Origin: Pempheris klunzingeri
Taxonomy: Eukaryota > Chordata > Actinopteri > Acropomatiformes > Pempheridae
Direction: 5' to 3'
Assembly: GCF_042242105.1 (NCBI RefSeq)
Contig: NC_092026.1
Location: 24,485,691-24,549,690 of the forward strand
Length of the DNA stretch: 64,000 bases
Every line of letters begins with the position of its first letter. Positions within the stretch are counted from its first letter, which is position 1. The notes under the pieces are model-generated. The model was not told where the DNA came from. It saw only the letters and a program-made list of their open reading frames with translations, and searched no databases. Shown piece by piece: positions 35,901-38,900 of this stretch. A program made the position numbers and the translations under genes.

Positions 35901-38900
35901 AAAAACGCTCCTCCTTCACCACAGAGATCTACGCACACACAGACGCACGCCGAGCCCTGTCAAGATTGTCTGCTGATCTACTAACATTGTTGTGATAGTC
36001 TTTCTCTCAAAGCGAGCAGTAGAGTGGGTGTGTGTATGTTTAACACTAGAACTGCCCACAGTAAAACTTACCCACAGCTGTCTTTCAAATGTATGTAACG
36101 TTGTGTCACTCAAATATTCAAGCCCCCCCAGTCTTGACTTTCCCTAAATGTGTTATGTAGCCCCCTCTATTGTTAAAAATTGTCAACCTATGACTACCAG
36201 CGGGGTACAACGAGCCCTACAGGAGCGGTACAGGTGGGAGCTCCTGCCCTCTGTGTGAGGGACAGCTAGTAATCTGTCATGTGTTCCCTTATTATGTGTT
36301 TTCTTTGACTTGTGGGGAGAATATAGTGGTGGTTACCAAAAGTGATCATTAGTTAATAAAATACTTTCTTTCAAATCTTCCCTGAGCAGAAAACCACAGA
36401 ACGGTGTTAAAATACACAAAGAATAAGCAAAGATGGGCATGAAGTTGAATAATTTGAGTCAGTTCACTCTTTATGGGACACTCTAGATCCACATCTAGCT
36501 TTTCAAACTACAGATCGTCACAACTCTTATACCTACACTCTTGAATAAATGCACCAGTATTGGACAATTTGTTTCTTACTACCAAAAAGAGCCCATATTT
36601 ACTGTGTGGTCTATCACTAAGAAATCCTGTTGAGCTAGATCAGATGGTTATAGCTTGTGTGTGTGTGTGTATAACCAACCTGATGTGGCACCAGTTCATC
36701 ATATCCTCTGGTGGAGCCAGTAGCACAGCAGGCCATAGAGACAACAGCAGAGCTTGGAAGAGAGTCCAGTGCTGAGCGCAGCTGTACAGCAGAGACAGAC
36801 AGTTACTGGAGTCTGGACAGTTCCACTTGTTACCTTTCAACACAGTGACCTTCTCACAATGACCGACTGATAACTTTAGGCCAGTATGTAAATACTGTCT
36901 GAGCAGGTAAAAACTAACAACTGAATTTTTACACATCGACTTGTGTGAGAATCTCATCAGGTAAAGAAAACCCACCTACATGGCTGTTTATGGTTATCGG
37001 CAGCAGTCATTCAACCTCCTTCTAAGCTGACCATGACAGACACCCACCTGTATAGGGCACTCGTTGTCGTGGGTTACATCGAGGAACATGGCGTGGGCGA
37101 TGGAGGGCATCAGTGGGCGCAGACTGGGCTGGACGAAAGCTCCGACGGGCTCACCTCCGTACCGATAGACCAACCTGCCTTCTTCGTGGCTGTCACCAGC
37201 TGACATGGCCTCTATGGCGGTGGGGGTGGGGGTGGGGGTGGGAGGGGTCATGAGACAGTGGAGGGTGGTTAAACAATCCATACTGCTGCAGCACTGTGGC
37301 TGACTTCATATATTCAAGCTTACTGTTGTGCAGTTGTGGGCCACACTCCAAAGCGGTTAGCACGCTTGTTAGTAAAGTGTTGCTTTTATTTCTCACTGAT
37401 TTACTGTATGTAACAACACCACCTACCTTGGTATCCCAGGTGGTCTATTTCATCAGTGTTAATGAATATACTGAAAATGTAGGGGTATGCATTCTGAACA
37501 TGTTAATGACTGTACCTCGTATGAGCGATGTGATCCCTAGCTTGGTTACGAAGACATTATCCAGCTCCTCACTGCCGGTGAACAGTTCAGCCACCACATA
37601 CAGGTTAGGACAAACTGCTCTGGCCACATCCAGCATGAACTGGTCAACCCACAGCAAGGCAACACACCAACCAGTGCAGACAGTGCAAGAGGTCAGGGTG
37701 AGGACAGAGGGAGGAGGAGGAGATTGGGGGAAGAGATCAGAAAGAGGAGGAGGAGAGTTAATGTGAAGGGGATGCAGCCAGTTAGAGGTAACGGATCTCC
37801 CAGTAACCACAGCGTGCAGTCACACGGTCCGTGAACACATACAGGGAGAGGAAAGAGAAAGACAGAGAGAGACGTTTGGCGCGAAGAGGAAGAATGTAGG
37901 ACAATGCAGTGAAAAGAGAAGAGAGAGACAAAAACACAAAGTTAGTTCGTGCATGAGAGCTGTACCTCGGATAAGACTGCTAATTCCCAGCCGGTTAACA
38001 AAGACATTGTCAATGAGCTCGCTGCCTGTGAACAGTTCAGCTATCACATACAGATTGGGTCTGACCTTTCTGGCTGCGTCTAACATGGCCTGGACAGGAC
38101 AATACACCAGCATTACAGACAGGGAGAGAAGGAGGGTCTGCTGTTAACAGGGTTCCACTCAAACACAGTATGCATCTATCTTTATGACTTTAATGACACT
38201 CAGTGGCATCTTTCCCACTGTGTATGTGTTTCCTTTCACTATTTTTTCTCGACCAATCCTGTTTAAAGCTATATTGTGCAACCCTAACCCTTTCATGCTA
38301 TTAAAAATAACTAGATAAATAGATATCTCTCCGCGTTTATGATTTGGTAAGTCTGTGGCACATACGTCAGAAGAGTGTGGTCACAGTGAGAGTGTTGTTT
38401 TGTTTTGTTTTTAGGTTTGCAAAGGTCAGTTAGCTAATCCTCGGCTAGACAGTACCTTAAGGTAGACAGCATGTGGTACTGTTGTAACATTAATGGCCTG
38501 CAGTAACCATGACTATCCTTGAGCATTAGAAAGGTGTTAGTTCTGAAGATAAATTGGATTCTCCCCCTCCGGCACTACAGTTTGTTAGGGCAAAGTTTCT
38601 CCACTGTCTTCTGTGGTAACAATGTGAGGTGCAGGATGTCTACTGATGTTATAACGAGGTAACACATTTGTACTGAGACATCAGTAACTTTAACATTAGT
38701 AGGTTTGTGTTCAGAAAGAAGTGTATCCGTTTACCATTTATTCATGTTACACAGACTACCAAGAAGAACAGAAATGCCTGTGTAATGTAATGTAGTGCAG
38801 TACAATAAATACAACCTAAAACGTTCCATTTCATTGAACCACAGGCTTATGGCCCAACTGCAGTGACCTGGGTTCGATTCCAGCCCATGGCCCTTTGCTG

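Follow-up and report, generated by a model that had tools for sequence, protein, structure and literature searches.

Why the gene of a core metabolic enzyme should carry its active-site exon twice, and whether both copies are used, is the question raised by the agl locus of Pempheris klunzingeri, analysed here within a stretch of 64,000 nucleotides (the window). AGL, the glycogen debranching enzyme, trims the branches of glycogen, and its gene is a human disease gene. The gene is complete on the minus strand of the window, from 50739 to 29919, all introns of the splice model are of the GT-AG type (Table 1), and the predicted protein is identical to Sparus aurata AGL at 1389 of 1536 residues. 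It reads as an intact, full-length AGL ortholog with all catalytic motifs kept; both isoforms contain the upstream LDN, which is encoded by exon 11 and aligns to residues 525-527 of 8zeq_A, as well as AELFTGSE. Downstream of agl, at 26012-27060 on the minus strand, lies a tandem array of short units that are open in several frames, with STPVHTCPHL-like repeats, while recurring open frames in agl introns (43896-44036 and 44546-45013) suggest a dispersed short repeat.

Table 1. Features of the agl locus, in coordinates of the window
Feature	Position	Strand	Basis and remarks
Whole agl coding span	29919..50739	-	gene model: 1536 aa; exon B in addition to the 34 coding exons of the A form
agl exon 11, constitutive, upstream of the pair	39216..39403	-	gene model; nucleophile motif LDNCHS
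Alternative exon A	37966..38089	-	sequence, splice sites; A-type rows in relatives
Intervening intron, 326 nt	37640..37965	-	71% pyrimidine
Candidate distant branch site AACTAACT (AACTAAC), A at 37942	37940..37947	-	motif scan, prediction
Rival candidate branch site CTCTAACT, A at 37782	37780..37787	-	motif scan, prediction
Alternative exon B	37516..37639	-	sequence, splice sites; B-type rows in relatives
Constitutive agl exon after the pair	37048..37211	-	gene model; frame kept with A alone or B alone

The two exons in question, A and B, are 124 nt each, are separated by 326 nt, and both lie between 39216 and 37211. Re-measurement confirmed the architecture described in the earlier note, i.e. 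two adjacent homologous exons of the same length and phases in one gene: each starts at a codon start and ends one base into the next codon, the acceptors (gtccag and gaccag) are intact, and the donor GAG/gtacag is common to both. A recount also returned the differences claimed there, with 40 of 124 bases changed (9, 8 and 23 at codon positions 1, 2 and 3, respectively) and the 41 codons divided into 15 identical, 16 synonymously different and 10 residue-changing ones; the distance from the human exon, given there as about 8 positions, is 8 residues for each copy. The divergence between A and B (Nei-Gojobori) amounts to a dN of about 0.24 and a dS of about 1.8, the latter being only a rough figure because dS is nearly saturated. 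The resemblance is more than chance, as the pair forms the longest direct-repeat family within 36000-40500 (137 nt, 70%) and both copies match solved debranching enzymes.

The length of the exons has a direct consequence for the reading frame. As 124 is 3n+1, a working mRNA was proposed to need exactly one of them, and early stops were indeed found with both or neither: joining A to B brings a stop codon inside B, and skipping of both leads to a stop after 33 codons of the following exons, so that either event is unproductive, whereas with A alone or B alone the agl reading frame continues. This frame rule is certain; the decay of the wrong mRNAs is presumed.

A duplication of this kind could also reflect two gene copies, or a fault of the assembly, instead of one transcription unit, the more so as teleosts have a second group of agl-like genes. 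However, both exons lie within one intron interval of one intact gene, isoform pairs of relatives are identical outside the exon, and catfish and lizard models, too, contain the copies in tandem (see below). In the 646 Mb assembly, moreover, the exon pattern matched only these two exons and one site on contig C17, for which reason a second agl gene was rejected as the source of either exon, although a diverged second agl may lie elsewhere in the genome. The C17 site, which also fits the AELFTG(S/T)E codon pattern (L003, around position 2021525 in assembly G000), is probably due to chance; tblastn of the whole protein against 20 kb around it found no similarity to agl. An assembly duplicate or a recent copy is ruled out by the 84 of 124 bases that the exons share together with the recurrence of the pair in other species. 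On present data the two-copy explanation is refuted for this locus, and I assign it a very small probability.

In order to see how A and B are used in relatives, three protein searches were evaluated, with typing by a two-residue rule. Among the matches listed, 204 rows were obtained: 108 A-type (one of them the snail P0203), 81 B-type, 6 with both exons, 8 fitting neither type (five invertebrates, P0096, P0136 and P0167), and one, P0201, without the motif. The first search, with 120 of 2090 matches listed, contributed 55 A, 63 B and 2 with both, and in its rows the mean pairwise identity was 0.947 among A exons, 0.906 among B exons and 0.738 between A and B. These values, together with a dN far below dS between the copies, bear out the suggestion that purifying selection acts on both. 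The RefSeq isoform pairs of Sparus aurata, Thunnus thynnus and T. maccoyii show 0 differences at the 1495 residues outside the exon; other same-species pairs do differ there (Lates 58, Anabas 27, Dicentrarchus 56, Astyanax 53, Myxocyprinus 96), for which faulty models or further gene copies may be the cause.

Because RefSeq X isoforms come from automatic modelling, contigs of mRNA size are the better evidence. Seventeen rows have a contig of 4703-7143 nt as their only source (lgn, which I take to be assembled from public read sets, or jgi), and they are read as spliced messages because a gene of 21 kb with its introns cannot fit into them. Ten carry A, seven carry B and none carries both, i.e. 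exactly one exon in 17 of 17, in relatives and not in P. klunzingeri itself. Outside the exon, P0034 (A, 4884 nt) matches P0055 (B, 6194 nt) at all 1495 residues, and P0067 (A, 5130 nt) matches P0087 (B, 6256 nt) at all 1156; for the A contigs P0026, P0056, P0075 and P0135, no near-identical B contig was found among the eight tested. That one of the exons is a silent relic, a product of annotation or decay beside a single copy in use, might be argued from the automatic annotation behind most isoform names, but with both forms represented in these contigs, and both copies as conserved as described above, this seems very improbable.

Among the outcomes that the earlier note had named as speaking against its proposal, a second copy that is absent or decaying in close relatives was not borne out: both exons are present there, without decay. 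Another, messages joining both copies, received a divided answer, as 6 of the 204 rows listed hold both, all of them gene models (P0003, P0123, P0154, P0124 and P0125 from catfish and lizards, with the copies in tandem, and likewise P0022 from Lucifuga), against none of the mRNA-sized contigs. In the squamate models P0124 (Rhineura) and P0125 (Varanus isoform X1), the frame is kept with both exons plus intron-derived residues; this reflects either a mistake of annotation or an inclusive isoform that really exists. The intact and conserved copies, the A-alone and B-alone contigs in relatives, and the frame that is broken by both or neither argue for mutual exclusion and uphold the proposal that the active-site exons form a selected pair of which one excludes the other. 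Very probably, then, A and B are an ancient tandem-duplicated pair, with exactly one of the two in every working agl mRNA; the two resulting debranching enzymes would be distinguished solely by the 41 residues that surround the acid/base Glu.

Exclusion would rest first on the frame rule, the wrong mRNAs presumably being degraded. A second device may lie in the intervening intron, which between the gtacag of the A donor and the B acceptor contains a lone AG (37798-37797), compared to a mean of 5.95 in shuffles of the same base composition, only 0.9% of which have one or none. Its AG-free stretch, the longest among the 35 introns examined (the next being 102 nt), extends over 157 nt before exon B, which is above the mark of 100-150 nt used for distant branch points (PMC1431707). 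The candidate AACTAAC branch site is found 24 nt from the exon A donor and is followed by a long pyrimidine tract; against it speak the lone AG, which falls between this site and exon B, and the good rival site at 37782 inside the strict AG-free zone. A distant branch site at this position would be too close to the donor for A to be joined to B, similar to the mutually exclusive exons 4a and 4b of OGDH, in which branch sites 25-41 nt from the donor of the first exon are held to enforce exclusion (PMC7969005). The chances of such a branch-point block in agl appear about even.

Alternatively, exclusion may be exerted by the frame and nonsense-mediated decay only, a branch at 37782 or 37758 allowing A+B mRNAs that are made and then destroyed. 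This explanation, to which I give somewhat less than an even chance, accords with the early stops described above and with the strict AG-free zone, which holds the predicted branch sites CTCTAACT (143 nt before exon B and 184 nt from the donor) and CATTAACT at 37758 (208 nt from the donor); furthermore, only one-fifth to one-half of human AG-free zones of at least 100 nt are stated to reflect a distant branch site (PMC1431707). It leaves aside, however, that AACTAAC at +24 with its long pyrimidine tract fits the OGDH layout (PMC7969005). The lizard model P0124 also counts against it: 34 residues separate the two copies there, and if these are the intron translated without a break, it would be about 101 nt long with mostly pyrimidine-type codons, which would favour a branch site near the donor in that species. 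RNA structure was rejected as the exclusion device, the intervening intron folding no better than shuffles (z -0.22). At 37932-37955 on the minus strand a small hairpin is predicted that has the AACTAAC candidate in its loop and is reminiscent of the hairpin described for OGDH; with CUAAC in the loop, z is -3.11 in these 24 nt and -0.16 over 40 nt, and because the 24-nt segment was picked after the hairpin had been seen, the hairpin is not used as evidence.

Returning to the exon pair itself, outward searches with the A segment of a catfish (120 listed of 1619 matches) and subsequently of the wallaby (120 listed of 382) give an impression of its spread. Among the matches listed, A-type exons occur in ray-finned fishes (osteoglossomorphs, elopomorphs, Denticeps, catfishes, characins, carps, salmonids, gar, paddlefish and bichir) and in the lobe-finned lineage (coelacanth, lungfish, axolotl, six frogs, turtle, alligator, lizards and rattlesnake). 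The marsupial tammar wallaby has an A-type isoform, X2, so that such an exon, of which the earlier note knew none in mammalian AGL, is not absent from mammals. As A-type exons occur across bony vertebrates, the pair is private to neither P. klunzingeri nor the teleosts. Human 8zeq, Fukomys P0177, the mammal-like P0180 and Pelecanus P0185-P0187 are B-type among the matches listed, from which sharks are absent; the absence of A in sharks, placental mammals and birds is not informative, because isoforms can hide inside the clusters of a database clustered at 90% identity and only part of the matches was listed.

When 48 chosen exon peptides were placed in a tree, the 26 A rows formed a single group (ultrafast bootstrap 99, SH-aLRT 90), and the 17 B rows all fell to the same side of a branch supported at 94/86, slightly below the mark of the tool; the tree rests on 41 columns, too few to resolve the inner branching. 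Squamate A exons share on average 35.8 of 41 residues with fish A exons, compared to 28-29 with the B exons of the same animals, whereas the contrast is slight for squamate B, with 31.8 of 41 against fish B and 30.2 between A and B. Within the 48-row selection, the residues of A and B do not overlap at positions 538 (Ala, Glu or Asp versus Phe or Tyr), 553 (Ile versus Val) and 562 (non-acidic versus Glu or Asp). Exceptions are found outside the selection: Glu562 is present in P0136 and P0167, whose segments are A-like in other respects, and Ile553 in P0096, whose segment is B-like; in a larger teleost set only 562 and 569 are non-overlapping. The invertebrate rows have a single copy each, with Asn569 as in A. 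The presence of A-type exons in both lineages, combined with the separation of A and B in the exon tree, indicates that the duplication, as judged from these peptides, predates the split between ray-finned and lobe-finned fishes and thus the radiation of the bony vertebrates, a group more than 400 million years old.

A tree of 63 chosen proteins from which the exon had been removed separates the teleosts into two groups, for which I use agla and aglb as labels of my own. In one of them, with 24 rows, both A and B are present; it includes orthologs of the window gene, those of Sparus and Thunnus among them. The other consists of 14 rows (P0149, P0197, P0172, P0181, P0136, P0167, P0151, P0153, P0159, P0165, P0166, P0176, P0178 and P0201), of which 13 have Ile553 and one, P0201, is unscored. 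The second agl-like gene may thus have kept only the A form after genome duplication, but the loss of B is only a lead, because the second and third searches used A segments and so favoured A rows.

The location of the differences between A and B gives some indication of what a choice between them could do. Both exons encode AELFTGSE, whose first Glu, the acid/base residue of the 4-alpha-glucanotransferase site, corresponds by alignment to position 555 of the human chain 8zeq_A and to Glu564 of Candida GDE, the E564Q mutant of which has lost its transferase activity (PMC4837477). Its neighbours Phe566 and Gly568 are described as part of a cleft that possibly holds the main chain of the substrate (PMC4837477). 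In human numbering and by alignment, the difference at 553 is two residues ahead of the catalytic Glu, and that at 562 is three residues past the Gly equivalent to Candida Gly568. It is plausible that these changes alter the grip on the main chain or the rate of transfer; that they tune chain transfer or tissue use, as the earlier note put it, is a guess. The A form, with Ile553 and a usually non-acidic residue 562, would have an altered loop beside the main-chain cleft, and its transferase might thereby be adjusted for certain tissues or feeding states, which I propose with low confidence. In the overfed goose liver, AGL is listed among the differentially spliced genes with the event unnamed (PMC12785810), which as a pointer to the choice between A and B is a lead only.

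Taken to its furthest, this reading would have bony vertebrates maintain, for more than 400 million years, two forms of the AGL glucanotransferase active site, selected by splicing according to tissue or feeding state and unlike each other in activity or chain preference. Placental mammals would have lost or silenced A, and after the teleost genome duplication one agl copy would have retained the pair and the other only A, which would have distributed the two forms over separate genes. This is a tentative scenario, and I would sooner bet against it in its entirety.

Mutually exclusive exons are a known kind, and the closest parallel is OGDH, in which exons 4a and 4b are likewise tandem homologous exons of a core metabolic enzyme with a frame broken by both, a branch site about 25 nt from the first donor (a candidate in agl) and a very long pyrimidine tract (PMC7969005). 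In contrast to agl, where the site is predicted and the intron is broken by one AG, the branch sites of OGDH have been mapped by lariat sequencing, and its isoforms differ in their calcium response (PMC7969005). A long, pyrimidine-rich AG-free zone before the second exon is also shared with the exons of alpha-tropomyosin and alpha-actinin that have distant branch points, but these encode structural muscle proteins and are regulated by PTB (PMC1431707). Human tandem duplicated exon substitutions resemble the agl pair as well, being homologous tandem exons swapped within one gene and mostly ancient, although AGL is unnamed in the main text of that study (PMC9741552) and the human AGL exon is B-type. 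Vertebrate AGL is usually described with a single active-site form, in contrast to the two found here. A published account of alternative agl active-site exons, as a member of this known kind, was not found among the open-licence papers listed on AGL splicing, although the isoforms are already in sequence databases.

The agl pair looks like an old, little-noticed switch in a human disease gene, and after OGDH, AGL would be the second core metabolic enzyme found to have an exon of this ancient either-or type. If conserved, such an active-site switch would provide a natural swap of 41 residues with which the basis of transferase specificity could be tested, and it would be a caution that the isoform choice present in fish, frog and reptile models may be missing in humans.
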